From Anaerolineae bacterium (GTDB lineage Bacteria; Chloroflexota; Anaerolineae; JAFGEY01), in the NCBI GenBank assembly GCA_016929205.1, contig JAFGJF010000202.1, positions 1 through 30,113 of the forward strand: a stretch of DNA of 30,113 nucleotides. Direction: 5' to 3'. Under the pieces are notes generated by a model, which made no database searches, was not told the origin of the DNA, and worked only from the letters and a program-made list of their open reading frames with translations. The position numbers and the translations under genes are program-made. Shown here in pieces: positions 6,351 through 29,925 of the stretch; the stretch's first letter is position 1; each line of letters starts with the position of its first letter.

Positions 6351-7482
6351 ATCCGATTCCTCCGCGCTCAAACAAGGCATTCTGCGCCAGGCGTTCCTGC
6401 ACGACCTGGACAAGCGCATCGCGCATTGCATTCGCTTCGTTCATCAGTTCGACAAAAGCGTGTTTTTCCAGGGTCAGTACCTCAACGGCCGAGTGCACTG
6501 CCGCCTTGACGCTGGCAACCGCCTGATCACGCCTTTGAAACAGCTCGACCTCACCAAAGTACTGCCCTGGCCCCAGGCGAGCTACCACCCCCGAACGCGC
6601 TTTCTGCTCGAGGTGAACTTCGGTATGTCCTTGGGCAATCATGTAAAAGCGATTGTTCTGGTTTCCTTGTTGAATGATCGTTTCCCCAGCTTCAAATCGG
6701 CGGGGCTCCAGTATCTTTGTCGCTTTGAGCATCTGGCGATGCGTCAACAAGGGTAGCGTTTTGGCCACCGTTTCGTTAATCATCTCTCCGTCGGCAAGCA
6801 GCACTTTGCGCGACGCACGGTCAGCCAAACTGCTGTCGTGTGTGACCATAATGATCGTCTTGCCTTGCGTGGATAACTCTTCAAAGATGCGAAATATGAC
6901 GTCTGCGGCGCGTGAATCGAGGTTGCCTGTTGGCTCATCGGCAACAATAAGCGGTGGATCGTTAGCCAGAGCGCGAGCGATAGCCGCACTCTGTTGTTGG
7001 CCTCCTGACACAGCAGCCGGCATTTTGTGGGCCACATCGGCCAACCCGACCATATCAAGCAGATTCATAGCTCGCGTTTCCCGTTCCGCAGGCGCGTACA
7101 TACCGCCAAAATCCATGGGCAGCATCACGTTTTCCAGAAGCGACAACATGGGCAGCAATTGGTAAAATTGAAAGACAATGCCCAGGTTGCGGCCGCGCCA
7201 CCGGGACATCTGGCTTTCGTTCAGTTTGTGAACGTACGTATCGCCGATCCTGACCTCCCCCGATGTGGGGTGATCGATGCCAGCCAGCATATTGACCAGC
7301 GTCGACTTGCCGCTGCCGGACTTGCCCACCACACTGACAAACTCACCCTTGTGAAAATCGGCATCGATGCCCTTGAGTGCAGGAAATTCGCCAGCCGGGG
7401 TGTGAAAAATCTTGACAATATTGCTCATCTCGATAAAGACATCGTCGGACTGCTTGGGTTTATTGAACAATTTTGATAGCAT
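6328..7482 (-). CDS. ABC ATPase fused to a C-terminal cyclic-nucleotide-binding-like domain
   Basis: A 384-residue protein. The N-terminal 235 residues are a LolD/MacB-type ATPase: Walker [10 protein letters not shown] (53-61), Walker B LIVADEP (178-184) with catalytic Glu183, and switch His215. The signature is VSGGQQQS, where the family normally has LSGGQQQR, so it is slightly degenerate. Residues about 245-370 form a CAP_ED/cNMP-binding fold with the phosphate-cassette-like [20 protein letters not shown]. The Arg that grips the cyclic phosphate in CRP-like domains appears to be Gln320, so binding of cAMP/cGMP is doubtful and another ligand or a structural role is possible. It lies 12 bases after the canonical ATPase gene and overlaps the permease gene. 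Likely the second half of an ATPase heterodimer whose activity can be tuned through the extra domain. Confidence 0.9.
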
Positions 7483-7494
7483 GTCTTCTCCTAC

Positions 7495-8208
7495 CTAATC
7501 GGCCTCCCGAGTTATCTCTCCATCTACAATCTTGAGTACTTGAGAGAACCGCCCTTTCAAGCTCTCGTCATGGGTAACCATCACAATGGTTTTCCCCTGG
7601 TGTACCAGGTCCTCAAACAAGGAGAAAATATCCTCTGCCGTCGCTGAATCGAGGTTTCCAGTCGGTTCGTCGGCAACAATGATCGGCGGATCGTTCGCCA
7701 AGGCACGGGCTATGGCGACTCGCTGCTGCTGCCCGCCAGAGATCTTGGTCGGCTGTTTTTCCATGTGCTCTTGCAGCCCAACTTGCGTCAGAAGTTCTTT
7801 GGCACGGGCTATGCTCTTACGGGGCTTGTACAGACCACAAAAGTCCATTGGCAGAACCACATTATCGATCAAGGTCAGCATGGGCAACAGTTCAAAAGAT
7901 TGATAGATCACGCCCACATTGCGTCCGCGCCAGGATGCCATCTGGTTTTCCCCGAGCGCGTGCACGGCCGTGCCATCGACCCACACCTCGCCAGAAGTGA
8001 TGTGATCGACGCCGGTCATCATATTGACCAACGTCGACTTGCCGGCGCCGGACTTGCCGACAATACCGACAAACTCACCTTTGCCAAAATTGGCACTGAC
8101 GTTCCTGAGAGCAGCAAAATTGCCCGCGGCGGTTTTATACGTTTTGGATACCTCGCGCAATTGAATAAGTGGCTCTCGATCTGCGGGCCATGCTCTACAT
8201 TCAGCCAT
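7495..8208 (-). CDS. ABC transporter ATP-binding protein (LolD/MacB type)
   Basis: A 237-residue ATPase starting at ATG 8208, with GGAG 5-6 bases upstream. An in-frame ATG at 8295 would add 29 residues unlike the family, and the promoter lies inside that stretch, so the shorter start is preferred. All motifs are canonical: Walker [10 protein letters not shown] (51-59), Q-loop IYQSFELLP, signature [15 protein letters not shown] (156-170), Walker B IIVADEP with Glu181, D-loop NLDS and switch His213. Family: exporters with FtsX-like permeases (Lol, MacB, BceAB/LiaFSR-associated). It is the first gene of the operon and is complete, whereas its partner at 6328-7482 has an altered signature, suggesting an asymmetric heterodimer. 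Confidence 0.92.
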
Positions 8209-18100: not shown

Positions 18101-18475
18101 TTGAAACTGCACAAGGTTATATCTATCGTGGATGGTGTTGCAGTCTCTGCTACTACCGATATGGATATGGATATTCGATGCGGGCTCAGCGCCGATTTGA
18201 TGAGCGATGTATTGAGATTCGGCCAAGCCGGTATGCTGCTGCTCACCGGCTTGACCAATCCCCAGGCCATTCGCACAGCCGACATGCTTGGCATTCCGGC
18301 CTTGCTCTTTGTGCGCGCCAAGCTGCCTGCGCAAGAAACAATTGCGCTGGCGCAAGAACTGGGGATCTCGCTGCTCGTTACTCGATTTACAATGTACGAA
18401 GCCAGCGGCCTTTTATTCCAGGCCGGACTCGCAGGAATAGGCCCTTGCGGCGAATTGACGCAGGCGCCTCGATAG
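18101..18475 (+). CDS. DRTGG-domain-like protein (first copy)
   Basis: A 124-residue protein with a TTG start; TGAGG lies about eight bases before it and no better start exists. It shows the alternating beta/alpha pattern of DRTGG domains, with a hydrophobic core GMLLLTGLTNPQAIRTADMLG and a C-terminal MYEASGLLFQAGL. Family knowledge: DRTGG domains occur in HprK-associated and CBS-associated proteins and are thought to bind a ligand, but no biochemical role is settled. Small DRTGG proteins of this kind often stand next to hydrogenase genes in Clostridia and Thermotogae. It starts a tight series: 24 bases to the CBS-HATPase gene, which is in turn followed by a second DRTGG-like gene. It may be a regulatory or adaptor subunit. 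Confidence 0.75.
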   Translation: MKLHKVISIVDGVAVSATTDMDMDIRCGLSADLMSDVLRFGQAGMLLLTGLTNPQAIRTADMLGIPALLFVRAKLPAQETIALAQELGISLLVTRFTMYEASGLLFQAGLAGIGPCGELTQAPR

Positions 18476-18499
18476 TGGTTTTGCCTTCGAACAGCGCCT

Positions 18500-19447
18500 A
18501 TGGTGGACATTACCAAGATTCAAGAAATATTTTATGAACTGCGCGTTCAAGAGGTGATGACCAGAGATGTGATCACCGTCACAACGCAAACGCCGATGCG
18601 TGAGTTAAAAGAGATCCTGCGCATCCGACGCATATCGGGCACGCCGGTCGTCGAAAATGGCAACCTGGTCGGCGTCATCAGCATGGCGAATCTGATCGAA
18701 GCGCTCGAAGCAGGCAAAATGGATGAAACCGTCAGCGCGCATATGACCCCTCAGCCAGAGGTGCTGTATGCCAGCGAAAGGGTCATCTCGGCGATTCGCA
18801 AGCTGGAAACGACAAACTATGGACGTTTCCCTGTGACACAGCGCAGCACGGGCAAACTGGTTGGTATCTTGACCAGAGGTGACATCATCCAGGGCACATT
18901 AAAACAGCTCGATGTCGACTACCGGAAACGTGAAGCAGAGACTCATCGAGAGCACTTTTTTTTCCAAGACATCACCTCTCGAGACACGAGCATCACGTTG
19001 CGCTATACCGTCGAGGCGAAGGATTTTGTAAACGGTGGCCAGGCAGCAAGCCAGATCAAGCGTTCGCTGCACAACCTGGGCATCTCGCCGACTGTATTGC
19101 GCCGTGTGGCGGTAGCCGCATACGAAGCAGAAATGAATCTCGTCGTTCATACCGACAATGGCGGCGACATTGTGGTCAGGATACGCCCTCACCTGCTGCA
19201 CATCGACATAACAGACAATGGTCCGGGCATTCAGGACGTAGAACTGGCTATGCGGCCAGGTTTCTCGACGGCTCCGCCCAGCATCCGCGAGATGGGCTTT
19301 GGCGCAGGGATGGGGTTGACCAATATCCAAAACTGTGCAGACGAAATGACGCTTGAATCTGAGATAGGCATAGGCACACATTTACAAATCCTTTTCCGGT
19401 TGGAACAAGAGGATGACTGGCAAACGGCAGCAAATAACAAGCCGTAA
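18500..19447 (+). CDS. CBS-domain pair fused to a GHKL/SpoIIAB-like ATPase domain
   Basis: A 315-residue protein. Residues about 15-75 and 80-132 are two CBS motifs (VQEVMTRDVITVTT; SAHMTPQPEVL to LVGILTRGDII) that together form a Bateman module, usually an adenine-nucleotide sensor. Residues about 160-305 are an HATPase_c domain of the anti-sigma/serine-kinase type: N-box AAYEAEMNLVVHT, G1 box ITDNGPGI, and GFGAGMGLTNIQNCADE. There is no His-containing dimerisation helix, so it is not a classical sensor kinase. It might phosphorylate a Ser/Thr or His partner or act as an ATP-driven switch. ATG 18500 lacks a clear Shine-Dalgarno. It sits between two DRTGG genes and is likely part of a control module for the hydrogenase downstream, tuned to energy charge; this role is inferred. 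Confidence 0.85.
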   Translation: MVDITKIQEIFYELRVQEVMTRDVITVTTQTPMRELKEILRIRRISGTPVVENGNLVGVISMANLIEALEAGKMDETVSAHMTPQPEVLYASERVISAIRKLETTNYGRFPVTQRSTGKLVGILTRGDIIQGTLKQLDVDYRKREAETHREHFFFQDITSRDTSITLRYTVEAKDFVNGGQAASQIKRSLHNLGISPTVLRRVAVAAYEAEMNLVVHTDNGGDIVVRIRPHLLHIDITDNGPGIQDVELAMRPGFSTAPPSIREMGFGAGMGLTNIQNCADEMTLESEIGIGTHLQILFRLEQEDDWQTAANNKP

Positions 19448-19469
19448 CAAGAACAGGTTAAAGACGACA

Positions 19470-19832
19470 ATGATGACACCGCAGACGATGATGCAAGCCG
19501 TGACTGTTCATCAGGCTGTCCAAGAACTAAACCTAACAACTGTAAATGACGCAGGTCTGGAGCGTGAGATCACTGGCGGATATGCTTCCGACCTGCTTAG
19601 CTGTGTTATGGCAGGTGCACGGCAGGGCAACGTCTGGGTTACATTGCAAGCCCATCCCAACGTCATTGCCGTCGCTTCGCTAGTTGGGCTGTCCGCCTTG
19701 ATCATCACCGAGGGTATCCAGCCAGATCCAGAAACCATTCGCAGGGCCAGAGAAGAAAGAGTCAACGTGTTAACCAGCACGCAAAGCACGTTTACCGTCG
19801 CCGGCAAGCTGGCAGAGATGGGCATTGACTGA
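19470..19832 (+). CDS. DRTGG-domain-like protein (second copy)
   Basis: About 120 residues from ATG 19470; starts at 19488 or 19491 fit the family equally well, and a longer frame from 19413 overlaps the previous gene. Seen: a GGYASDLLSCVMAGARQG motif near the start, matching the E-I-x-G-x-x-x-x-D-x-x-S pattern of DRTGG domains, then ALIITEGIQPDPETIRRA and a Ser/Thr-rich end VLTSTQSTFTVAGKL. It is the clearer DRTGG-like copy and differs in sequence from 18101-18475, so the pair may form a heteromer. Its stop overlaps the TTG start of the PHP gene by eight bases. Family members of unknown function cluster with hydrogenases; the role here is inferred as regulatory. Confidence 0.75.
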   Translation: MMTPQTMMQAVTVHQAVQELNLTTVNDAGLEREITGGYASDLLSCVMAGARQGNVWVTLQAHPNVIAVASLVGLSALIITEGIQPDPETIRRAREERVNVLTSTQSTFTVAGKLAEMGID

Positions 19833-20580
19833 CCCGATTCGAGACTTGCGCGTCGATCTGCACTTGCACACCGTGCTCTCGCCTTGCGCTGAAGTGGAAA
19901 TGATCCCACCACTCATTGTTCGCCAGGCACTGGCCTTGGGATTGGATGCCATTGCTGTTACCGACCATAACTGCGCCGACAATGTGTGCGCGGTGATGGA
20001 GGCGGCACGAGGCAGTGGCATCGTCGTTTTTCCAGGAATGGAAGTGCAAAGCCGCGAAGAAGTGCATGTGCTTTGTTTATTTGATACGCTAGAGCAGGTG
20101 AACGCATGGCAGGATATCGTTTCACCGACCTTGCCCGACCTTAAAAACAACGAGGATTTGTTTGGAGCACAATATGTCGTTGATGCGACTGGCGACCACG
20201 TGCGTACAGACAAGCGACTGTTATCAACTTCGACGCAGCTTTCGGTGGAAAATATCGTCGAATCGGTAAACCAATTGCAGGGTATCTGTTTGCCTGCGCA
20301 CGTCGACCGGCCTTCGTACAGCATTCTGGCCAACTTGGGATTCATTCCCTCAGATCTGGCCATTGCTGGTGTCGAGCTGTCATGCCATACAACGCCGCAA
20401 GCGGCGATCAAACGATTTCCACAGTTGGCTCAATACGGCTTGGTCGTCAACGGCGACGCACATCGCCTTGAGGAAATAATTGCACGCACCCTGATCCACG
20501 TAAGAGCGCCGACGGTCTCAGAATTACGTCTGGCCCTCAATCGTCAAGAGGGCAGATTTGTACGTGTCATTGAATCGTAA
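19825..20580 (+). CDS. PHP-domain phosphoesterase
   Basis: A 251-residue protein with a TTG start overlapping the upstream gene, which implies translational coupling. Metal-binding motifs of the PHP fold are visible: DLHLHT (His13, His15), an acidic residue in SPCAEVEM, AVTDHN (Asp47, His48), FPGMEV, PAHVDR and the final NGDAHR. Family knowledge: PHP proteins hydrolyse phosphate esters with two or three metals (histidinol phosphatase, TrpH-like 3',5'-nucleotide phosphatase). In this setting it could remove a phosphate placed by the neighbouring HATPase proteins, or degrade a nucleotide that these sense. The protein sits directly before nuoE. Homologues are typical neighbours of hydABC-type hydrogenase genes, as far as I recall. 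Confidence 0.87.
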   Translation: MTDPIRDLRVDLHLHTVLSPCAEVEMIPPLIVRQALALGLDAIAVTDHNCADNVCAVMEAARGSGIVVFPGMEVQSREEVHVLCLFDTLEQVNAWQDIVSPTLPDLKNNEDLFGAQYVVDATGDHVRTDKRLLSTSTQLSVENIVESVNQLQGICLPAHVDRPSYSILANLGFIPSDLAIAGVELSCHTTPQAAIKRFPQLAQYGLVVNGDAHRLEEIIARTLIHVRAPTVSELRLALNRQEGRFVRVIES

Positions 20581-20625
20581 ACCGTGTTCTCGAAAACACA
20601 CAACACACTTTCAGAGGAGCAGTGA

Positions 20626-21090
20626 ATGGAAGAACAACTCGATTTAGCCCCACTGTACGAGGTCTTGGATGAATACAAGACGCAAAAAGGTGCAGTCATC
20701 CCCGTCCTGCAAAAGGCTCAAGATATTTATGGGTGGCTGCCCAGAGAAGTACTTCAGGTCGTCGCCACTGGGATGAGCGTTCCCTTGAGTCAGGTGTACG
20801 GCGTGGTCACATTTTACTCACAGTTCTACCTGGAGCGTCGTGGCAGGAACATCATCCGCCAGTGCGACGGCACAGCCTGCCACGTTCGAGGTGCGGCCAA
20901 AATCATCGAGACCGTCGAAAAGCACCTGGGCATCAAGGCCGGTGAAACCACGCCCGATTACAAGTATACGTTCGAAGTTGTGTACTGTCTCGGCTCCTGT
21001 GGCCTGGCCCCGGTTGCCATGATTAACGATCAAGTTGTTGGACATCTTGTTCCTGACAAGCTGGTCGAGATCATTGACAATCTAGACTAA
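20626..21090 (+). CDS. nuoE: NuoE/HydC-type [2Fe-2S] subunit of the hydrogenase complex
   Basis: A 154-residue protein with an N-terminal helical bundle (about 5-65) and a thioredoxin-fold [2Fe-2S] domain. The four ligands are present: Cys80 and Cys85 (QCDGTACHVRGA), Cys121 and Cys125 (VYCLGSCGLAP). Family: 24-kDa subunit of complex I, HoxE, HydC of bifurcating hydrogenases and the gamma subunit of NAD-dependent formate dehydrogenases. No membrane subunits of complex I follow, so it belongs to a soluble enzyme. GAGGAG lies six bases before ATG 20626. It begins the structural genes of the cluster, 45 bases after the PHP gene. It should pair with the NuoF part of the protein at 22129-25272. Confidence 0.93.
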   Translation: MEEQLDLAPLYEVLDEYKTQKGAVIPVLQKAQDIYGWLPREVLQVVATGMSVPLSQVYGVVTFYSQFYLERRGRNIIRQCDGTACHVRGAAKIIETVEKHLGIKAGETTPDYKYTFEVVYCLGSCGLAPVAMINDQVVGHLVPDKLVEIIDNLD

Positions 21091-21105
21091 GACTGCAAAA
21101 GCGCA

Positions 21106-21672
21106 ATGCGCGAGCTTGCATTACACGTTCTCGACATCATCGAAAATGCGCTTGCGGCTGGTGCCGAGCACATCGATCTCGCTATCATCCAAGATATCGG
21201 CTCAGACCGCTTAACAATCAAAGTTCAAGATGATGGGTGCGGAATGGACGCCGCAACGATTCAAAAAGCGTACGATCCGTTCTATACGACACGCACAACC
21301 CGGCACGTTGGTCTGGGTATCCCGCTTTTCGCTGCTGCCGCCGAGCGGTGTGAAGGTGAACTGACCATCAAATCGGCGCCGGGCCAGGGAACGACGCTAA
21401 CAACGACGTTTCAACACAGTCACATTGACCGTGCACCCCTAGGGGATATGTCGTGCACACTGATGAGTCTCTTGATGCGAGACCAAGCGTTTGACTTGCA
21501 CTATCTGCACCAGATCAAGCGTCCTTGTGTTGAACACACATTCGAGTTTGACACAACCGAGATCAAACGCGAACTAGGTGACATACCGCTCACCTATCCA
21601 GATGTCCGAGACTGGCTGGCCGAGTTTATCCGTCAAGGAGAACAGAACATCACGTGCCAAACGTTATCCTGA
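21106..21672 (+). CDS. Stand-alone GHKL (HATPase) protein of hydrogenase clusters
   Basis: A 188-residue protein with an ATP-binding Bergerat fold in residues 1-105: N-box DIIENALAAGA, G1 box VQDDGCGMD, F-box region YDPFYTTRTTRHVGLGIPLF, G2 GQGTTL. It has no membrane segment, sensor domain or phospho-acceptor helix. Residues about 105-188 form a separate domain of unknown type. No Shine-Dalgarno is seen, and the frame is closed by the nuoE stop 15 bases upstream, so re-initiation after nuoE is likely. Lying between nuoE and a ferredoxin gene, inside the structural genes, it probably acts on the complex itself as a kinase or assembly factor. This is the second ATPase of this class in the cluster. 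Confidence 0.86.
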   Translation: MRELALHVLDIIENALAAGAEHIDLAIIQDIGSDRLTIKVQDDGCGMDAATIQKAYDPFYTTRTTRHVGLGIPLFAAAAERCEGELTIKSAPGQGTTLTTTFQHSHIDRAPLGDMSCTLMSLLMRDQAFDLHYLHQIKRPCVEHTFEFDTTEIKRELGDIPLTYPDVRDWLAEFIRQGEQNITCQTLS

Positions 21673-21703
21673 GCACGTGCTTGAGATTTGAAAGGAGTTT
21701 TTG

Positions 21704-22099
21704 ATGCCAAAAATAAAGTCGCTGGATGATTTGAAGCACATCCGCGAGAAAGCACAGCAGGAACTCAAGATCCGAACCGAAACAGGTACCAAAATCACCG
21801 TTGGAATGGGCACCTGCGGGATCGCCGCCGGGGCGCGCGAAACAATGCACGCCATCCTGGAGGAATTGAAAAAGCAGAACATCGAGGCGCACGTCACTAC
21901 CGTCGGTTGCATCGGTATGTGCTCCCAGGAACCGTTGGTCGACATCGAGCAGGCCGGCGAGGCCCGCATAACGTATGGGAACATCCATCCCGACATGGTG
22001 CCCCGCTTGATCAAAGAGCATTTGCTCGAGGGCAAAGTCGTTCAAGAATGGGCTTTTGGCCGCGTGTCCCCAGAGGGCATTGGCACCCAGGCTGAGTAA
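21704..22099 (+). CDS. Small thioredoxin-like [2Fe-2S] ferredoxin
   Basis: A 131-residue protein from ATG 21704 with AAGGAG six bases upstream (a TTG one codon earlier is less likely). An N-terminal helical region (1-25) precedes a thioredoxin-like ferredoxin fold. Cysteines are Cys38 (GMGTCGIAAGA), Cys69 and Cys73 (VGCIGMCSQEP). Compared with NuoE, the first ligand position is Gly, leaving three obvious Cys ligands. I recall that related small proteins next to hydABC share this pattern, so it may be a family trait with a different fourth ligand. It lies 31 bases before the NuoF-GltD gene. Possible roles are an extra electron-entry subunit or a redox sensor. Confidence 0.85.
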   Translation: MPKIKSLDDLKHIREKAQQELKIRTETGTKITVGMGTCGIAAGARETMHAILEELKKQNIEAHVTTVGCIGMCSQEPLVDIEQAGEARITYGNIHPDMVPRLIKEHLLEGKVVQEWAFGRVSPEGIGTQAE

Positions 22100-22128
22100 G
22101 ACAAACAGGATATAGCGAGGAGACAAGT

Positions 22129-25100
22129 ATGACTGAACCTTTATACCGCGCCAATGTATTGATCTGTGGCGGCACCGGGTGCGATGCATCCGGGTCGGAA
22201 AGCACAATCAAAGCAATGGTACAAGAGCTTGAAAAACGCAACCTCGAAAACGAAGTCCAGATCGTTCGTACCGGATGCCGAGGTTTCTGCGCGATGGGTC
22301 CGGTGATGATTATCTACCCCGAGGGCATATTTTACTGCCAGGTCGGGGCTGATGATGTACCCGAGGTGGTCGAAGAAACACTGATCAAAGGCCGCGTCGT
22401 CGACCGGCTCACCTACAAAACGCCCGACGTGCACCAAGATGTCCCTTTTTACGGTGACATTCCCTTCTACAGCAAGCAGATTCGGATCACACTGCGCAAC
22501 TGTGGGATGATCAATCCCGAGAACATTGAGGAATACATTGCTCGCGATGGTTATGCCGCGTTGAGCAAAGCCGTGTTTGAAATGACGCCCGACCAGGTTA
22601 TCCAGACCGTGCTCGATTCCGGGCTGCGTGGACGCGGTGGTGCCGGGTTTCCAACCGGCCTCAAGTGGCGGTTTACAGCCAGCGCCAAAAGCGACAAAAA
22701 GTACGTGGTCTGCAACGCCGACGAAGGCGACCCGGGCGCATTCATGGACCGTTCGATCATTGAGGGTGATCCCCACTCGTTGGTTGAAGGGATGACTTTG
22801 TGCGCCTATGCTGTCGGCGCAGATGAAGGATATATTTACTGTCGTGCCGAATACCCGCTGGCGATCAAACGCCTCAAGACCGCCATTGCCCAGGCAGAAG
22901 AGTATGGCGTTCTTGGCGATGGTATCTTGGGCACTGATTTCAATTTCCATCTCAAGGTCAAGGAAGGCGCCGGCGCCTTTGTCTGTGGTGAGGAAACGGC
23001 GCTTTTGGCTTCCATCGAAGGCCAGCGCGGCGAGCCGCGCCCACGCCCGCCGTTCCCGGCAGTCAAGGGCCTGTGGGCCGAACCAACCAACCTGAATAAC
23101 GTCAAGTCGTACGCCAACGTGCCGCAAATCATCGTGCGCGGAGCAGACTGGTTTGCCGGCATCGGCACGCCCAAGAGTCCGGGCACGGCGATTTTTGCCC
23201 TCACCGGCAACGTGAATAATACCGGACTCGTCGAAGTGCCTATGGGTATCACTGTCGGCGAGATCGTCTATGACATCGGTGGCGGCATCCCCAACGGCAA
23301 AACATTCAAAGCCGTACAGACTGGCGGACCACTGGGCGGCTGTATCCCGACCGAACACCTGAATGTCAAGGTCGACTTTGACTCGCTCAAAGAGATCGGC
23401 GCGGTAATGGGCTCCGGTGGTATGATCGTCATCGACGAAAACACCTGTATGGTCGAGTTTTCCAAGTTCTTTCTCACCTTTGCCCAGGCCGAAAGCTGCG
23501 GCAAGTGCATTCCGTGCCGCGTTGGCGGCAAGCGTATGCTCGAGATTCTAACCGACATCACCAATGGGTTGGGTACGATGGAAGACCTGGACACGATCAA
23601 ACGGATCGCCACCGGTATGCAAACCGGCGCCTTGTGTGCTTTGGGACAGTTGACACCCGGCCCAATTTTGTCGGCTTTGCGCTATTTCAGCGAAGAGTTT
23701 GAAGCCCACATCCTCGACAAACGCTGCCCGGCTGGCGTTTGCCAACCATTGGTTACCGCACGCTGCATCAACGCCTGCCCCGCCGAAATCGATATTCCAA
23801 GCTGGATCGCGCTCACCGCGCAGGGAAAAACGGCGGAAGGCATCGAAATCCATCGCCGTAAGAACCCCTTTGTACTGGCTTGCGGCCGTGTGTGCCCTGC
23901 CTTCTGCGAGACCCGCTGCCGCCGAGGCGACATCGATGAGCCGATCGCCATCCGCCAGATCAAGCGCTATATGGCCGATGAGGAAATGGCCCATCCGTGG
24001 ACACCGCCCAAAACCAGCGATGCCAAGGAAGAAAAGGTGGCTGTGGTGGGTAGCGGGCCGGCCGGCCTGACGGCCGCCCTGCGGCTGGCCCAGATGGGCT
24101 ACAAGGTCAAGATTTTTGAGAAACTGCCGGTACTCGGCGGTATGATGGCCGTCGGTATTCCCGACTATCGCCTGCCACGTGACGTGCTCGACTTTGAGAT
24201 CGAGGGTATCTTGAACGCTGGTATCGAGGTTCAGACCAACGTCAACATCGGTGTGGACATCACTTTTGAAGAACTTGCAGACGAATATAACGCCATCATC
24301 CTCGCTATCGGCGCGCACCACTGCCGTGGCCTGGGCATCGAGGGCGAAAAGCAGGAAGGCGTCTACCCGGGTGTCGATTTCTTGCGCGACGTGGCCCTGA
24401 ACAACAACGTGCCGGACCTGACAGGCAAGCGCGTGGGCGTGGTCGGCGGCGGTGACGTCGCCATCGATGCCGTGCGCACCTCCTGGCGATTGGGTGCGAG
24501 CGAAGTCCATCTCTTTTACCGGCGTGCGCGCGAGCAGATGCCTGCCCACAAAGAAGAGATTGCTGCAGCAGAAAAAGAAGGCGTCATTTTCCACTTTCTG
24601 ACCAACCCGACCAAGATTATCGGTAACGGAAGCGTCAGCGGCGTTGAGGTCCTCAAGCACGTGCTGGGCGAGTTCGACAGCAGCGGTCGCCGCCGCCCGG
24701 TCGCCGTCAACGGTTCAGAACAGGTTATCGGTCTGGATATCCTCATCCCGGCAATCGGCCAAGAGCCCGACATCCAGTGCTTTGACCCCGATACGGATTC
24801 GTGTGAAGCGTGTGGGATGGGATTCAACCGCAACTCGACCTTTATCGTTGACCGCACGTTGCAGACCACTCGCAGTGGCATCTTTGCTGCCGGCGACGTC
24901 GTACTTGGGCCAGCGACGGTCATCCAGGCCGTGGCGCAAGGCAACCAAGTAGCGCGCTCGGTAGATACATTCCTGCGTACCGGTGAGGCAACCTACGAAG
25001 TCATCTTGCCCGGCTACGAGGTGATCGAGCAACAGTTCGATCTCGACGATTACGCCGATGCCACACGACCACACGCTCGAGAATTGTCGATCAAGGAACG

Positions 25101-25272
25101 CAGAGGCAACTTTGAGGAAGTGGAACCATGCATGCCCGGAGAGGTTATCCGCGAAGAGTGCAAGCGCTGCTTGCGATGTGACTTGGAGTGGTTGCAGACA
25201 TTCAGCCTTCCGCTGGAGGCCAAACCAGACCGGCTGGCAGTAGAAGCCGAGTTCGCGGTCCTCAAAAAGTGA
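22129..25272 (+). CDS. nuoF: NuoF/HydB-type diaphorase fused to a GltD/NfnB-type oxidoreductase
   Basis: A 1047-residue fusion. Residues 1-95: thioredoxin-like [2Fe-2S] domain (Cys13, Cys18, Cys50, Cys54). Residues about 115-450: NuoF core with FMN/NADH motifs LRGRGGAGFPTG, CNADEGDPGAFMDR and CGEETALLASIEG, then the SLBB fold. Residues 450-510: [4Fe-4S] site (Cys457, Cys460, Cys463, Cys503). Residues 530-600: GltD-type double-cluster domain (Cys533, 538, 546, 550; Cys585, 589, 593, 597). Residues about 635-950: FAD site VVGSGPAG (639-646) and second Rossmann VVGGGDVAID (771-780) followed by FYRRAREQMPA, whose Arg pair usually marks NADPH preference. The tail has Cys-rich CKRCLRCDLEW. The fusion puts an NADH/FMN site and a probable NADPH/FAD site in one chain, linked by Fe-S clusters. 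GAGGAG precedes ATG 22129. Two strong hairpins follow the gene. Confidence 0.94.
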   Translation: MTEPLYRANVLICGGTGCDASGSESTIKAMVQELEKRNLENEVQIVRTGCRGFCAMGPVMIIYPEGIFYCQVGADDVPEVVEETLIKGRVVDRLTYKTPDVHQDVPFYGDIPFYSKQIRITLRNCGMINPENIEEYIARDGYAALSKAVFEMTPDQVIQTVLDSGLRGRGGAGFPTGLKWRFTASAKSDKKYVVCNADEGDPGAFMDRSIIEGDPHSLVEGMTLCAYAVGADEGYIYCRAEYPLAIKRLKTAIAQAEEYGVLGDGILGTDFNFHLKVKEGAGAFVCGEETALLASIEGQRGEPRPRPPFPAVKGLWAEPTNLNNVKSYANVPQIIVRGADWFAGIGTPKSPGTAIFALTGNVNNTGLVEVPMGITVGEIVYDIGGGIPNGKTFKAVQTGGPLGGCIPTEHLNVKVDFDSLKEIGAVMGSGGMIVIDENTCMVEFSKFFLTFAQAESCGKCIPCRVGGKRMLEILTDITNGLGTMEDLDTIKRIATGMQTGALCALGQLTPGPILSALRYFSEEFEAHILDKRCPAGVCQPLVTARCINACPAEIDIPSWIALTAQGKTAEGIEIHRRKNPFVLACGRVCPAFCETRCRRGDIDEPIAIRQIKRYMADEEMAHPWTPPKTSDAKEEKVAVVGSGPAGLTAALRLAQMGYKVKIFEKLPVLGGMMAVGIPDYRLPRDVLDFEIEGILNAGIEVQTNVNIGVDITFEELADEYNAIILAIGAHHCRGLGIEGEKQEGVYPGVDFLRDVALNNNVPDLTGKRVGVVGGGDVAIDAVRTSWRLGASEVHLFYRRAREQMPAHKEEIAAAEKEGVIFHFLTNPTKIIGNGSVSGVEVLKHVLGEFDSSGRRRPVAVNGSEQVIGLDILIPAIGQEPDIQCFDPDTDSCEACGMGFNRNSTFIVDRTLQTTRSGIFAAGDVVLGPATVIQAVAQGNQVARSVDTFLRTGEATYEVILPGYEVIEQQFDLDDYADATRPHARELSIKERRGNFEEVEPCMPGEVIREECKRCLRCDLEWLQTFSLPLEAKPDRLAVEAEFAVLKK

Positions 25273-25284
25273 TTTCAGCTATGA

Positions 25285-25319
25285 TGCCGGTCGCGCTTTT
25301 TCCACAAACGCGACCGGCA
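25285..25319 (+). repeat. Intercistronic hairpin 1 (after NuoF-GltD)
   Basis: GCCGGTCGCG (25286-25295) pairs perfectly with CGCGACCGGC (25309-25318), and an outer T-A pair makes 11 bp with a 13-base loop. It starts 13 bases after the stop codon. No T-tract follows on either strand, so it is not a standard terminator. mRNA end protection or processing are possible roles. Confidence 0.7.
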
Positions 25320-25340
25320 AAAATCAAGGTTGATTGCCTT

Positions 25341-25374
25341 TCCCGGCACGGCGCGCACCCGAGCAGTGCCGGGA
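25341..25374 (+). repeat. Intercistronic hairpin 2 (before NuoG-like gene)
   Basis: CCCGGCAC (25342-25349) pairs with GTGCCGGG (25366-25373), with an outer T-A pair giving 9 bp around a 16-base loop. It lies 21 bases after hairpin 1 and 34 bases before the AAGGAG of the next gene. There is no T-tract. Confidence 0.65.
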
Positions 25375-25422
25375 GCAAAAGACCATTACAATCCATCTTT
25401 CATCAGAAAGGAGTTCCCCGCA

Positions 25423-27129
25423 ATGGCATTGGTAAACGTTACCATCAATGACAAACAGATTGCCGTCCAATCAGGACTGACAATCCTCAATGCAGCCAAA
25501 GAAGCCGGGATCGATATTCCTACGTTGTGCGACCACCCGGCGCTCGAACCCATTGGCGCGTGTCGTATGTGCCTGGTCGAGGTTGAGAAGCAACGCGCGT
25601 TGCAGCCCGCATGCAGTTTTCGAGTTTCTGAAGGTATGATAGTACACACCGAATCCGAAAAAGTGGTCGAAACGCGCAAATTCCTGCTCGAGCTGCTCTT
25701 TTCCGAGCGGAACCACTATTGTATGTACTGCCAGATGAGCGGCGACTGCGAGTTGCAGTCTCTGGCATACCGCTATGGGCTTGATAGCTGGCTCTATCAG
25801 CGCCCTTATCCGCCGCTGCCGGTCGACGCCACGCGACAGTATTTCGTGATGGATCACAACCGCTGCGTGCTTTGCCGTCGCTGCGTCCGCATGTGCGGTG
25901 AACTGGTCGGCAACCACACCCTGGGATTGGGGGACCGTGGCGCGAACACGATGATCGTTGCCGATATGGACGTACCCTTTGGCCAGTCTTCCTGCGTCTC
26001 TTGCGGCAACTGCCTGCAGGTTTGCCCGACCGGCGCACTGATGGATCGCAGGAGCGCTTATCGCGGCCTGGAAAAAGACCTGCAACACGTCAAGAGCTCC
26101 TGCACGGCGTGCAGCGTGGGCTGTGGTATGCAACTCCTCACCCGTGACAACCAACTAATCCGCATTGAAGGCGATTGGGATTCAGTCGAGACCAAGGGCT
26201 TGATGTGTATCGCTGGACGCTTTGAGCCGCTGGACGAGAAGCGACGCCGTGCTTGGACACCGATGATCAGGCGAGACGGCAGGATGTGGCCGGCGACCGT
26301 AGATGAAGCGCTGAACGCGGTAGCCGCCAAGCTAAAGGGTGGCTCTGTCGCAGCAGTGACCTCAACGCACGTCAGCAATGAGGCGCTCCAGTTGTTTGCC
26401 AAGGTGTTCGATGGTGCCCAGAGCGTTGGTAGTTTGACCCCCGTCCCGGCATTTATGGCCGAGGCCGAAGGCACGCTTGCGTCGCTAGACGAGTCGGACT
26501 TTTACGTCATCGTCGGCACAGACCTGACCACCGATCACCAGGTAGCCGGATTTGCCGTCAAACGCAACGTCACCAACAAGGGAGCGCGCATGATCGTTGT
26601 CGACGACAAGGCAAATGGTATGGATCCCCTGGCCTATAAACACTTGAAAGCCAGTGAGGTCGATCAAGCTATTGACCTGGCCAAGCGCGCCGAAATTCCT
26701 ACTGTCATCTATGGCGCCGGCGCTGGCGATGTGCTCCCCGCATTACGCGAAGCTCTGGCCGGCAAGGCGCAGTTCGTGGGCCTCGTGCCGGGCAGCAATG
26801 GGCGCGGTGCAGTAGCGGCCGGACTGAACGGTGGCTTTAAAGTTGATGGTGCCAAAATCGTCTTTGTGCTGGCTGCCGACGATACAGTAGACGCATCACT
26901 GTTGGCCGGCGTGGCCGACGATGCCTTTGTCGTGGTACAGGCCACCTACGAAAGCGCGTTGACCGAACGAGCGGACGTGATCCTGCCTTGCGGCGGATGG
27001 GCCGAAAAATCGGGTACGTTTACAAACACAGAAGGTCGTGAGGTCGCAGTCACCGCAGCATTGCAACCGCCGACCGGCGTTCAGAGCGACGAAGAGATCT
27101 TGCAGGCCCTGGCCGAAAAACTGGGCTAA
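25423..27129 (+). CDS. nuoG: NuoG/HydA-N-type Fe-S subunit with a molybdopterin-oxidoreductase-like C-terminal domain
   Basis: A 568-residue protein from ATG 25423 (AAGGAG nine bases upstream); the frame opens earlier but the ferredoxin fold starts here. Clusters in order: plant-type [2Fe-2S] (Cys36, 47, 50, 64); His-ligated [4Fe-4S] (His98, Cys100, 103, 109); two ferredoxin-type [4Fe-4S] (Cys148, 151, 154, 158; Cys191, 194, 197, 201); and the fourth [4Fe-4S] of molybdopterin enzymes (Cys227, 230, 234, 262). Residues about 270-560 resemble a shortened molybdopterin-oxidoreductase fold, too short to bind a full bis-MGD cofactor. The H-cluster domain of [FeFe] HydA is absent. Role: electron wire between the diaphorase and the [NiFe] pair. 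It is larger than HoxU, which has only the first 240 or so residues, and resembles complex I NuoG instead. Confidence 0.92.
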   Translation: MALVNVTINDKQIAVQSGLTILNAAKEAGIDIPTLCDHPALEPIGACRMCLVEVEKQRALQPACSFRVSEGMIVHTESEKVVETRKFLLELLFSERNHYCMYCQMSGDCELQSLAYRYGLDSWLYQRPYPPLPVDATRQYFVMDHNRCVLCRRCVRMCGELVGNHTLGLGDRGANTMIVADMDVPFGQSSCVSCGNCLQVCPTGALMDRRSAYRGLEKDLQHVKSSCTACSVGCGMQLLTRDNQLIRIEGDWDSVETKGLMCIAGRFEPLDEKRRRAWTPMIRRDGRMWPATVDEALNAVAAKLKGGSVAAVTSTHVSNEALQLFAKVFDGAQSVGSLTPVPAFMAEAEGTLASLDESDFYVIVGTDLTTDHQVAGFAVKRNVTNKGARMIVVDDKANGMDPLAYKHLKASEVDQAIDLAKRAEIPTVIYGAGAGDVLPALREALAGKAQFVGLVPGSNGRGAVAAGLNGGFKVDGAKIVFVLAADDTVDASLLAGVADDAFVVVQATYESALTERADVILPCGGWAEKSGTFTNTEGREVAVTAALQPPTGVQSDEEILQALAEKLG

Positions 27130-27174
27130 AAGATCGGTTGGTGTCATATCGAAAAGCCGTGGTGGTCAAAGTGA

Positions 27175-27193
27175 GTTTTGTCATAAACAAAAC
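27175..27193. promoter_or_regulatory. Inverted repeat overlapping the hoxYH promoter
   Basis: GTTTTGT (27175-27181), spacer CATAA, ACAAAAC (27187-27193): a perfect 7-bp dyad. It overlaps the -35 position of the promoter at 27184-27212, the usual place for a repressor. The half-site spacing differs from Rex (TTGTG...CACAA) and from FNR/CRP sites, so the regulator is unknown. Confidence 0.4.
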
Positions 27194-27212
27194 GGCCAAA
27201 ATGTGGTATAAT
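27184..27212 (+). promoter_or_regulatory. Internal promoter driving hoxYH
   Basis: TAAACA (27184-27189), 17 bases, then perfect TATAAT (27207-27212) with extension TGGTATAAT. Transcription would start near 27219 and give a leader of about 90 bases before hoxY. It lies in the 180-base gap after the NuoG-like gene, so the [NiFe] subunits can be transcribed on their own. Confidence 0.6.
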
Positions 27213-27309
27213 GAAACAGATTTGTTCCATCAATGCCTTTTTGTCTGATTGTTCGCGACATTGTGCACTGCGACCACCACACACTGATATCTGTACAGGA
27301 GGAAATCCA

Positions 27310-27855
27310 ATGGCTAAAGTCACGTTGGCCAGTGATTGGCTGGACGTTTGTTCGGGCTGTCACATGGCCTTGCTCGACATTGACGAACGGATCGTCGAAC
27401 TGATCAAGCACGTTGACATCCTATCCACACCGATCACCGACCTCAAGCACCCGCCAGAAGAAGGCGTAGACGTCGGCATCTTGACCGGTGCGGTGAGCAA
27501 TACCCATCAAGTCGAGGCCGCCGAGCTGATGCGCGAACGATCGAAAATACTGATCGCCATGGGCGACTGCGCAGTTTTCGGCGGTATCTGCACCATGCGC
27601 AACTTTTTTGACAAAGAAGAAGTCTTGCACTACGGCTATGTCGATAGCGCCAGCACCGACTCAGAAGGCAAAGTACCCCGTTCACCCGAGTTGGGCGTGC
27701 TGCTCGACAAAGTCAAGGCCGTTAACGAAGTCGTCAAGGTCGACCTGCACATTCCAGGTTGTCCCCCGCCCGCAGATGCGATCTGGTACGCCATCACCGA
27801 GTTGCTGGCCGGCCGGATCCCCGTGCTCACAGGCGAAAACCTGACGTACGAATAA
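27310..27855 (+). CDS. hoxY: [NiFe] hydrogenase small subunit, HoxY type (group 3)
   Basis: A 181-residue protein from ATG 27310 with AGGAGG upstream; a longer frame from 27211 crosses the promoter and is rejected. It is the short cytosolic form: no Tat signal and a single proximal [4Fe-4S] cluster. Ligand candidates are Cys14 and Cys17 (DVCSGCHM), Cys87 (AMGDCAVFGG) and Cys151 (IPGCPPP); Cys94 is also present. Length and motifs match HoxY of NAD-linked group 3d enzymes and the small subunits of related soluble hydrogenases. It passes electrons from HoxH to the Fe-S protein encoded before it. It is followed by hoxH after 13 bases. Confidence 0.95.
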   Translation: MAKVTLASDWLDVCSGCHMALLDIDERIVELIKHVDILSTPITDLKHPPEEGVDVGILTGAVSNTHQVEAAELMRERSKILIAMGDCAVFGGICTMRNFFDKEEVLHYGYVDSASTDSEGKVPRSPELGVLLDKVKAVNEVVKVDLHIPGCPPPADAIWYAITELLAGRIPVLTGENLTYE

Positions 27856-27868
27856 AAGGAGAGTGAAT

Positions 27869-29299
27869 ATGGGTCAGAAAATTACAATCGAACCCGTAAC
27901 CCGCATCGAGGGTCACGCCCGCGTGACCATTCACCTGAACGATGCAAACGAGGTCGAACACGCATACTTTCACGTCGACCAATTCCGTGGTTTTGAGAGA
28001 TTCTGCCAGGGGCGTATGTTTTTCGAAATGCCGGCCATTACCCCTCGCATCTGCGGCATTTGCCCGGTAAGCCATCACCTGGTTTCGGCCAAAGCCTGCG
28101 ACCAGATCGCCAATGTCGATCCGCCGCGCCCGGCCAAACTGCTGCGCGAGCTGATGCATATGGGGCAGATGATCCAGTCACACTCAATGCACTTTTTCCA
28201 CCTGGCTGCACCAGACCTAGTGTTGGGCTTTGACGCCGACCCGGCGATCCGCAACGTGATCGGCATCATCAATGCCAATCCTACACTGGCGCTCAAAGCC
28301 ATCGCGCTGCGCAAATACGGCCAAGAGATCATCAGCACGCTGTCAGGTGGACGACGCATCCACCCCAAGTTCGCCGTTCCCGGTGGCGTGAACAAGGCGC
28401 TGACAGTCAAGGAACGTGATGGCATGCTGGCTCCCCTGGACGATATGATCAGCCATATGCAGGAAGGGCTGGCCATTGCCAAGCAGTGGATGGAAGCCAA
28501 CATGGATGTCGTGCTCCGGTTTGCCAATTTCCGCTCCGGCTATATGGGCCTGGTCGACGAGGAAACCGGCGCACTTGAACTGTACGACGGGCCAATCCGC
28601 TTGATCGACCGCGATGGCAAACTGCTGGAGCAGTTTGAGAGTCCCGACTATCTCGACTATATCGCCGAACACGTTGAAGATTGGTCTTACTTGAAATTCC
28701 CGTACTATAAAAAGATGGGCTGGCCCGATGGCGTTTATCGCGTTGCACCGCTCGGTCGCCTCAATGTGGCCGACTGCATCAGCACACCGTTGGCCAACGA
28801 AGAATTTAAAAAATTCAAGGCCATTTCCAAAGGCCCGATCGAACCGTCTTTGTACATGCACTATGCCCGGCTGATCGAAGACATTTACGCCGCCGAACGG
28901 GCACGCGAACTGCTCGAAGATCCGGACATCCTGTCTACCGACATCATCAATACCAACACCGAAATCACCACTGGCAGAGGTGTCGGCGTCATCGAAGCGC
29001 CGCGCGGCACCTTGTTCCACCACTATGAGACGGACGAAAATGGGCAGCTCACCAAAGTCAACCTCATCGTCGCCACCGGCAACAACAACTGGGCGATGAG
29101 CACTTCGGTCGATATGGTCGCCAAAGAATTCATCGACGGCAACAATATCACCGAAGGCATGCTCAACCGCGTTGAAGCCGCGATCCGCGCTTACGACCCC
29201 TGCCTGTCCTGTTCGACGCACGCTATCGGCCAGATGCCGATCATCGTCGAGGTACGCGACGCACAGGGTGACTTGATCAGGACCTTGAGACGGGATTGA
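27869..29299 (+). CDS. hoxH: [NiFe] hydrogenase large subunit, HoxH type (group 3d-like)
   Basis: A 476-residue catalytic subunit. ATG 27869 has AGGAG seven bases upstream; a GTG two codons earlier is less well placed. The Ni-Fe(CN)2CO centre ligands are all present: L1 motif [11 protein letters not shown] (Cys62, Cys65) and L2 motif DPCLSCSTH (Cys445, Cys448). A 25-residue tail beginning AIGQMP follows His451 and should be removed by the specific protease encoded at 29416. Family knowledge: group 3 enzymes are reversible cytosolic hydrogenases linked to NAD(P). With the partner subunits here it would oxidise or make H2 in exchange with pyridine nucleotides and possibly ferredoxin. The Hyp maturation genes are not in the window. 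Inactive or truncated features are not seen. Confidence 0.96.
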
Positions 29300-29345
29300 T
29301 TAGGACAAAACCTGAACCGTTTGTCCGAAACCTGCGAATTTGATG

Positions 29346-29382
29346 ACAAGGAGACAAGGAACGCGCGACCTTGTCTCCTTGT
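29346..29382 (+). terminator. Strong hairpin between hoxH and the maturation protease gene
   Basis: A 14-bp perfect stem, ACAAGGAGACAAGG (29346-29359) with CCTTGTCTCCTTGT (29369-29382), around a 9-base loop. TTTGTGT follows, which is only moderately T-rich. It may terminate part of the transcripts or protect the hoxYH message, lowering protease expression relative to the enzyme. The left arm also contains ACAAGG twice. Confidence 0.5.
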
Positions 29383-29415
29383 TTGTGTCAATGATTCTAT
29401 CTGGAGGGACACTTT

Positions 29416-29925
29416 TTGCCGAACACACTCGTAATAGGCTTTGGCAACATCTATCGACGCGATGATGGCGTTGCTTTCCATGTCGTCAATGCGCTGCGCG
29501 AAAAGCTCGAGCGATTACCATTGGCTTGGGAAGATGACGGCTTTGACGATCTGGGCCACTCGGTCGACACCGTCATCCTGCATCAATTGGTACCGGAAAT
29601 GGCCGAAACCATTTCCGGATACGATCGGGTCATCTTTGTCGATGCCCACATCAGCCAAATAGAAGATCCGGTTCGCACCGAAACGATCGACGCCTGCTAC
29701 AAAGAAGCAACCGTGCCGCACCAGCTCCATCCCTGTTCGATCCTGGCCATGGCCAACGAATTGTATGGATGCGCGGTCGAAGGGCTGCTCGTCTCCATCC
29801 GCGGCCACGATTTTGACTTTGGCGACCAACTGTCAGCGCAAACGGCCAGCCTCGTGCCGCAAGCGACGGACTGCATCCTCGCCCAGATTGCGGCCGCAAC
29901 AAATCGAGAGGATGGCGAAACATGA
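29416..29925 (+). CDS. [NiFe] hydrogenase maturation protease (HoxW/HybD/FrhD family)
   Basis: A 169-residue protein with a TTG start; GGAGG lies eight bases upstream and the family motif VIGFGNIYRRDDGVAFHVV begins almost at once, fixing the start. Predicted Ni-sensing ligands are the acidic residue in RRDDG (Asp16/17), Asp76 in VIFVDAH and a His in HQLHPCS (His102 or His105). Family knowledge: the enzyme checks nickel insertion and then cuts the C-terminal tail of its one large subunit, here the 25 residues after His451 of HoxH. It follows hoxH by 116 bases and overlaps the next gene by four bases (ATGA). Confidence 0.92.
   Translation: MPNTLVIGFGNIYRRDDGVAFHVVNALREKLERLPLAWEDDGFDDLGHSVDTVILHQLVPEMAETISGYDRVIFVDAHISQIEDPVRTETIDACYKEATVPHQLHPCSILAMANELYGCAVEGLLVSIRGHDFDFGDQLSAQTASLVPQATDCILAQIAAATNREDGET

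Follow-up and report, generated by a model that had tools for sequence, protein, structure and literature searches.

The stretch of DNA analyzed here, referred to as the window, comprised 30,113 nucleotides from an Anaerolineae bacterium (GenBank assembly GCA_016929205.1, contig JAFGJF010000202.1, positions 1 to 30,113 of the forward strand). The locus of interest, positions 18101-29925, encoded a [NiFe] hydrogenase of the HydABC type and its accessory proteins. An earlier note on this DNA had described twelve co-directional genes in this interval, and a check of the open reading frames (ORFs) bore this out; all twelve were located on the plus strand, and most were separated by tens of bases or by small overlaps. 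Wider gaps preceded the HydA, HydS, and protease genes, and the likely starts of HydA and HydS (ATG at 25423 and 27310) were located within the listed ORFs. The window stopped 188 bases past the protease gene, and downstream neighbors were seen in relatives only. The genes, modules, and residues of the locus were as follows:

18101..18475, plus strand: DRTGG-like small protein of 124 amino acids (aa), first of the set (Pfam DRTGG, 13.7 bits, E 0.057; homologues in relatives)
18500..19447, plus strand: protein with two CBS domains and a HATPase domain (family scan, CBS 86 bits)
19413..19832, plus strand: DRTGG domain protein, true start probably slightly downstream (Pfam, 35.2 bits; cut-off 25.2)
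19825..20580, plus strand: PHP domain protein (family scan)
20626..21090, plus strand: HydC/BfuC (NuoE), [2Fe-2S], Cys 80, 85, 121, and 125 (2Fe-2S_thioredx, 177 bits)
21106..21672, plus strand: HATPase, HisK-like accessory protein (family scan; HisK is named in the Acetomicrobium mobile operon)
21701..22099, plus strand: thioredoxin-like ferredoxin with three Cys, possibly HydD of A. mobile, as inferred here (family scan)
22129..25272, plus strand: HydB/BfuB-GltD fusion, 1047 aa (Complex1_51K 158, Fer4_20 73, and Pyr_redox_2 120 bits)
23446..23448, plus strand: Cys440, hinge/B2 residue (C438 of A. mobile; alignment, conservation)
23707..23742, plus strand: hinge His527, Cys533, and Cys538 (H525, C531, and C536 of A. 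mobile; alignment, conservation)
23743..25272, plus strand: GltD/NfnL-like module at the bridge ([4Fe-4S]2) position of A. mobile HydB (domains, alignments, fold search)
23764..23919, plus strand: GltD [4Fe-4S] ligand stretch, Cys546, 550, 589, 593, and 597 (Cys reading, conservation)
25168..25179, plus strand: C-terminal Cys1014/Cys1017 (RCLRC), probably a permuted N-terminal NfnL ligand motif (weak alignment; conservation)
25423..27129, plus strand: HydA/BfuA, NuoG-like (Fer2, NADH-G_4Fe-4S_3, Molybdop_Fe4S4; no H-cluster, no Molydop_binding)
27310..27855, plus strand: HydS (HoxY), ligands of a single [4Fe-4S] cluster, Cys 14, 17, 87, and 151 (Oxidored_q6)
27863..29299, plus strand: HydL (HoxH), Cys pairs RICGIC and DPCLSC, C-terminal extension (NiFeSe_Hases)
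29416..29925, plus strand: HydP-type hydrogenase maturation protease (TIGR00072, 69 bits; cut-off 47)

For four of the subunits, the best match in the Protein Data Bank (PDB) was a chain of the A. mobile NiFe-HydABCSL hydrogenase: 7t2r_B for HydB (E 8.5e-256), 7t2r_A for HydA (E 7.2e-84), 7t2r_E for HydS (E 1.2e-54), and 7t2r_D for HydL (E 4.4e-174; HoxH 5xf9 ranked fifth). Together with the presence of the HydSL pair, these matches confirmed the [NiFe] HydABC-type core that the earlier note had proposed. The NiFe-site Cys pairs were both present in HydL, and HydS contained ligands for one [4Fe-4S] cluster, as is likewise reported for A. mobile HydS (PMC8880783, PMC9304861). The Cys sets of HydA corresponded to a [2Fe-2S] cluster and several [4Fe-4S] clusters, one of the Molybdop_Fe4S4 type; this subunit had no H-cluster and no Molydop_binding domain. 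In agreement with the absence of an H-cluster domain claimed in the note, PF02906 had no match in the Pfam scan, which covered 25 ORFs of the window. A HydABC-type core, HydS, and HydL were located in one cluster with a HydA that lacked the H-cluster, which is the subunit composition of NiFe-HydABCSL. Judged by its anatomy, the enzyme is a new variant of NiFe-HydABCSL (NiFe-Bfu).

What distinguished the variant was the C-terminal part of HydB. In A. mobile, HydB ends in a domain with two [4Fe-4S] clusters, B3/B4, for which a role as the route to ferredoxin is proposed in PMC9304861; the matching domain of Thermotoga maritima is named the bridge. Window HydB aligned to 7t2r_B only up to residue 542, just beyond the hinge EAHI..KRCPAGVC. 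HydB of a related locus, L009, aligned to the same chain across the bridge (residues 33-626 against 3-596), and its NuoF part was 73% identical to that of the window. The Pfam scan detected no Fer4-type domain other than Fer4_20 in window HydB, and the bridge was not found. Past the hinge, we observed a GltD/NfnL module with cluster ligands and with motifs for flavin adenine dinucleotide (FAD) and NADP(H). By alignment, this module stands exactly at the bridge position, directly after the Cys/His hinge, a placement that the earlier note had not noticed. The GltD module, which the earlier note had singled out, was a real difference from the A. mobile enzyme, as indicated by the domain scan and the alignment break at residue 542. 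The Bfu hinge/B2 residues C438, H525, C531, and C536 were all kept in window HydB. In the case of A. mobile C476, the residue was T in window HydB and likewise in Thermoanaerobacter kivui HydB and StnB (by eye).

The nearest solved relatives of the GltD module were subunits of the NfnABC and Stn transhydrogenases (E 4e-116 to 7e-92), followed by NfnL. The module seems to be permuted relative to NfnL. Specifically, the RCLxC stretch of NfnL (4ylf, residues 8-43) matched the C terminus of the window protein weakly (6.7 bits, independent E 21), and the NfnABC and Stn chains contained a similar RCLxC-like stretch behind the GltD domain. An AlphaFold2 model of HydB-GltD had a mean predicted local distance difference test score (pLDDT) of 80.9 and a predicted template modeling score (pTM) of 0.57, with unreliable mutual placement of the two halves. 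When the model was compared to the PDB, HydB/StnB-type chains occupied ranks 1-12, NfnABC, Stn, and NfnL chains occupied ranks 19-26, and the GltD module had a TM-score of 0.76 to 5jca_L, normalized by target length. In bifurcating NfnL, the FAD environment includes R201 to N5. The GltD module had an Arg at the position of StnC R239 (YRLP, by eye); StnC shares this Arg yet does not bifurcate.

To judge conservation, we used 138 fused proteins, namely, the window protein, 27 from related loci, and 110 of 120 listed database matches. Ten database proteins shorter than 950 aa were excluded, and the set contained one duplicate row (P0152, identical to L003). The hinge residues C440, H527, C533, and C538 were present in all 138 proteins. 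The same was true of the GltD ligands C546, C550, C589, C593, and C597, and C1014 and C1017 were present in 137 of 138. The YRR residues were conserved in 138, 137, and 138 of the 138 proteins, and the GxGPAG and GGGxxAxD motifs were nearly invariant. Because the ligands and YRR residues were conserved in all or nearly all fused proteins, the GltD module looks functional. A bridge motif (CxxCxxCxxxC) after residue 480 occurred in 0 of the 138 proteins. The hinge motif was missing in HoxF of Cupriavidus necator and Lichenicola, the two HoxF proteins compared.

The surveys showed that the fusion is not a lone example. Loci were fetched by HydL, and we used the best 80 of the 204 matched; 14 of these contained the fusion (three were cut, mostly with just the GltD end visible) and 44 contained a bridge-type NuoF. 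In addition, at least 23 fused places were found in at least 21 of 400 sampled Chloroflexota genomes, a survey that scored two candidates per genome and gave lower bounds. The neighborhoods of 21 of the 23 places were read: 13 had HydL, 6 had a NuoG of the formate-dehydrogenase type (Molybdopterin and Molydop_binding domains confirmed five, and the sixth was a split gene), and 2 had neither assignment. At L107, L108, L110, L118, and L122, NuoF-GltD adjoined molybdopterin formate-dehydrogenase-type subunits, which extends the module swap to a second type of enzyme. At L111 (genome G386), a large NuoG/FdhA-like gene at 5326-8022 was split into frames of 538 and 356 aa, for which a selenocysteine codon is one conceivable cause. 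A separate Chloroflexota lineage (L119, L120, L121, L123, and L124) combined NuoF-GltD with a short, HoxU-size NuoG and HydL; NuoE and HydS were visible in some of these loci, and their HydL grouped with A. mobile HydL and cyanobacterial HoxH. At L008, L017, L021, L032, and L070, a second NuoE'-NuoF' pair with neither bridge nor GltD was located between HydB and NuoG. Such a pair was also seen in many Anaerolineaceae loci with a bridge-type HydB (for example, L023:5335-7468), and the second NuoF' copies had the hinge motif in most loci. Hydrogenases with this second pair may carry two diaphorases.

We then set NuoF-part trees against a GltD-part tree. In quick NuoF-part trees, the distribution of fused and bridge forms required at least nine changes among 52 labelled rows and seven on 50 rows; these counts were parsimony minima on trees with weakly supported forks. 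Five solved references were labelled as bridge forms from alignments and papers, and the 50-row analysis omitted 19 of 69 rows (16 NuoF' copies, HoxF of L126, and both L122 HydB rows). A careful NuoF tree of 35 of the 69 rows placed the window part with bifurcating HydB/StnB, separate from plain NuoF' (support 100/100). In the same tree, L009 (bridge) paired with L007 (fused; 99/80), and the NuoF parts of this pair were 79% identical. Fused L008 and L070 were located near the base of the Anaerolineaceae bridge group (100/97), and their NuoF parts were 74-75% identical to that of L018 (bridge) and 58% identical to that of the window. Fused L032 joined L018 with weak support (88/52). In the GltD tree, L008, L032, and L070 fell inside the window's 13-row GltD clade (Shimodaira-Hasegawa-like approximate likelihood ratio test [SH-aLRT], 100). 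The NuoF-part and GltD-part trees were in conflict. A single origin of the fusion was considered and rejected: approximately unbiased (AU) tests rejected monophyly both for all fused rows together and for ten Anaerolineae-type fused rows, with p-values that are too sharp since the groups were chosen after the first tree, and with large log-likelihood gaps (366 and 429). The simplest reading of these trees is that bridge and GltD have been exchanged repeatedly at the hinge junction. An apparent exchange at a single junction points to one shared slot for bridge and GltD.

The phylogenetic check proposed in the earlier note gave a split answer; the NuoF part grouped with HydB/StnB, and HoxH gave no clear class. 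The HydL tree contained 50 of 65 rows (the 15 omitted were the 3b outgroup, one partial row, one divergent row, and 12 removed for thinning). It set HoxH of C. necator, Hydrogenophilus thermoluteolus, and Lichenicola apart (100/98), with Acaryochloris HoxH joining A. mobile HydL (99/90). HydL phylogeny was accordingly discarded as proof of bifurcation, a clade free of known HoxH being unsupported.

The first nine gene types of the locus had been regarded as an oddity, the usual company of [FeFe] enzymes. We examined 53 related [NiFe] loci whose sequence reached 9.5 kb or more upstream of HydL, using the best label per ORF (the 10-kb flank cuts some loci). CBS-HATPase genes were found in 35, DRTGG in 36, PHP in 37, HATPase in 40, and ferredoxin in 42; all five occurred together in 35 of the 53, and the first DRTGG-like gene occurred in 6. 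A looser count gave 38 for PHP, 41 for HATPase, and 10 for the first DRTGG-like gene. HisK, HydD, and HydP genes are also named in the A. mobile operon (PMC8880783, PMC9304861). With this co-occurrence in related [NiFe] loci, the regulators no longer appeared odd, and the idea that they mark [FeFe] descent was weakened. The thioredoxin-like ferredoxin scored 24.0 bits, marginally below the 24.8 cut-off. Its three cysteines are presumably one short of the four usual in such a [2Fe-2S] domain.

Two DRTGG genes had been claimed. The second was confirmed by its Pfam score; the first was sub-threshold by itself, but its homologue in L056 has a clear DRTGG domain. BLASTP gave no alignment between the two window proteins, and homologues of the first preceded the gene set in L009, L063, L075, L077, and L080. 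The L056 protein (L056:1-1671, Deltaproteobacteria MAG [metagenome-assembled genome] SURF_34; 556 aa) contained two [4Fe-4S] motifs, PF02906, a PF04060 motif, and a C-terminal DRTGG domain. It headed its cluster, at the place of the window's lone DRTGG-like gene, and had Fer4 and FeS domains. From this architecture, the protein appears regulator-like rather than a HydA, and the window's lone DRTGG-like gene may be a remnant of an L056-type regulator. The remaining genes of the window were unrelated (a LytR-type protein, asparaginase-2, dihydrodipicolinate synthase, GH10, a two-component pair, and an ABC transporter).

Our preferred reading, to which we assign a probability of roughly 0.4, is that a bifurcating/confurcating NiFe-Bfu enzyme with GltD in place of the bridge couples H2 reversibly to NAD(H) and NADP(H). 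H2 would be split at HydL, and electrons would pass through HydS and HydA to flavin mononucleotide (FMN) of HydB, the NAD(H) site, along a path deduced by comparison with the homologous 7t2r. In A. mobile, the hinge leads to B3/B4 and ferredoxin; in the window enzyme, it would lead to the GltD clusters and FAD, and NADP(H) would take or share the low-potential place of ferredoxin. The coupled reaction would be 2 H2 + NAD+ + NADP+ -> NADH + NADPH + 2 H+, reversible in direction, with the cycle at the FMN-hinge-C1 core. In favor of this reading are the PDB matches of four subunits to NiFe-HydABCSL chains, the alignment break of window HydB after the hinge, the position of the NuoF part with HydB/StnB, the conserved GltD ligands and YRR residues, the kinship of the GltD module to those of NfnABC/Stn enzymes, and the apparent module exchange. 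The hinge residues kept by all 138 fused proteins also speak for it; according to PMC9304861, the hinge His is missing in just 8 of 1558 BfuB and is not present in non-bifurcating homologues. The potentials given in PMC9304861 (E' of -280 mV for NAD, -380 mV for NADP, and -500 mV for ferredoxin) yielded computed break-even H2 pressures of ~145 Pa for NADH plus NADPH versus ~15 kPa for NADH plus ferredoxin. A more specific proposal, ferredoxin-free bifurcation with NAD+ at FMN and NADP+ at the GltD FAD, and with the C-terminal slot of BfuB as a repeatedly switched socket, is one that we regard as possible but somewhat doubtful.

Several points weighed against the preferred reading. In PMC9304861, the BfuBC cofactors are reported to be absolutely conserved. 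The complete B1-B5 set, including B3/B4, is reported to be apparently necessary. The N-terminal [2Fe-2S] residues Cys13 and Cys18 were each present in 110 of the 138 fused proteins (both in the window). The H..C....C hinge motif also occurred in NuoF' copies that lack any C-terminal module (15 of 16), and for this reason the hinge His is weakened as proof of bifurcation. In the HydB-GltD model, linker 539-548 had low confidence, and the placement of GltD relative to the hinge is tentative. The AU test rejected a clade of the studied hydrogenases and A. mobile without cyanobacterial HoxH (p 0.002), and because cyanobacterial HoxH groups with A. mobile HydL, HoxH alone gives no support for the term bifurcating. 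Finally, a GltD-type module could also interact with ferredoxin, by analogy with NfnB in Nfn.

This last point leads to a four-carrier hub, in which ferredoxin would dock at the GltD [4Fe-4S] clusters, NADP(H) would be an additional partner, and H2, NAD(H), NADP(H), and ferredoxin would all be coupled. In Nfn, the two [4Fe-4S] clusters of NfnB carry electrons to ferredoxin, and the conserved GltD ligands and the intact FMN part of HydB fit this arrangement. The GltD module of Stn, among the nearest solved, has lost its bifurcating role and relays NADPH electrons, and window HydB showed no sign of the bridge, where ferredoxin is proposed to dock; we judge the hub unlikely. The loss of B3/B4, which the papers tie to bifurcation, could instead mean that coupling is gone and that the enzyme is a non-bifurcating, dual-cofactor hydrogenase, with separate reduction of NAD+ at FMN and of NADP+ at FAD. 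The hinge motif in NuoF' copies and the position of HydL near cyanobacterial HoxH are consistent with such an enzyme. An uncoupled enzyme would have less need of the hinge His/Cys residues that all 138 fused proteins kept and the two HoxF lacked, and we place this explanation, too, well on the improbable side.

Two further explanations appeared very improbable. A plain group 3d HoxEFUYH enzyme bearing an extra domain of no redox importance would account for the 3d neighborhood of HydL and the grouping of Acaryochloris HoxH with A. mobile HydL. It conflicts with the NuoF part, which belongs with HydB/StnB, with the PDB ranking of HydL (7t2r first, 5xf9 fifth), with the absence of the hinge motif from C. 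necator and Lichenicola HoxF, and with the conserved GltD motifs. It is just as hard to credit that NuoEFG-GltD serves another dehydrogenase, an [FeFe] HydA or formate dehydrogenase encoded elsewhere, with HydSL as a separate enzyme. Fused subunits do adjoin formate-dehydrogenase-type subunits in some genomes, and PF02906 was present in 3 of 19 genomes searched; Pfam was used for this search because a regular-expression search for H-cluster motifs missed four of five [FeFe] control loci. In the window, HydSL follows NuoG, and HydL was located in the same run at 13 of 21 fused places read. The earlier note had named an [FeFe] HydA gene just outside the cluster, using these subunits, as a possible refutation; PF02906 was not found in 12 of the 14 fused-type draft genomes searched. 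In G003 it was on a different contig from HydL, and in L056 it was in the DRTGG-bearing protein, which had no NuoG-type domains.

If the preferred reading is true, NADP(H) is added as a low-potential partner of the family, and if the socket proposal is true, a switch between bridge and GltD retunes the turn-round H2 pressure by about two orders of magnitude. Enzymes without B3/B4 but with the FMN part, the hinge, and an NADP(H)-type module are a ready test of bifurcation in this family, and they pose the question of whether B3/B4 is needed or the FMN-hinge-C1 core is enough. A passage of PMC9304861 names NiFe-Bfu in clades 49 (Synergistetes) and 19 (Halorhabdus), and our results would widen this range to Anaerolineae and Syntrophaceae-like MAGs. 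A search of the open-licence literature, which left aside supplements and most subscription papers, turned up no account of a NuoF-GltD subunit in a [NiFe] hydrogenase.

The Bfu family is defined in PMC9304861 by IPR011538, IPR019554, IPR019575, and IPR017896 in BfuB and IPR002023 in BfuC. The window had this set incompletely: the NuoF and NuoE Pfam domains were found, and BfuB had no 4Fe-4S ferredoxin domain. We take the Pfam domains to be equivalent to the Bfu InterPro entries. Group 3d HoxEFUYH enzymes (5xf9, C. necator, Lichenicola, and Acaryochloris) share the HoxY/HoxH-type subunits and NuoE/F/HoxU homologues with the window, but HoxF of C. necator and Lichenicola had neither the hinge motif nor a C-terminal module, and HoxU is short. 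The [FeFe] HydABC enzymes of T. maritima, Acetobacterium woodii, and T. kivui share the HydB/HydC core. Their HydA contains the H-cluster and their HydB keeps the bridge, whereas the window had neither in the scan described above. NfnL/NfnB (4ylf, 5jca) resembles the GltD module in fold and cluster motifs but is a separate subunit, and its N-terminal ligand motif seems to be C-terminal in the window, judging from a weak alignment. The Stn/NfnABC enzymes (Nfn-Bfu; 8oh5, 9bov, 9n5u) combine a BfuBC core with the nearest solved GltD sequence, as does the window. In these enzymes, GltD is inside the NuoG subunit rather than on HydB, there are no NiFe subunits, and the BfuB chains align through the bridge, unlike window HydB. 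The GltD module of Stn is described as binding NADPH and feeding electrons into the NuoG chain, its own bifurcation having been lost (PMC7483475, PMC10482914). Closest overall was the A. mobile NiFe-HydABCSL (7t2r/7t30), which comes from a Synergistota rather than a Chloroflexota-like host and whose HydB has the B3/B4 bridge where window HydB has GltD. It is alike in HydA, the NuoF part of HydB, HydS, HydL, the hinge residues, and the single HydS cluster, and its operon has HisK, HydD, and HydP genes too.

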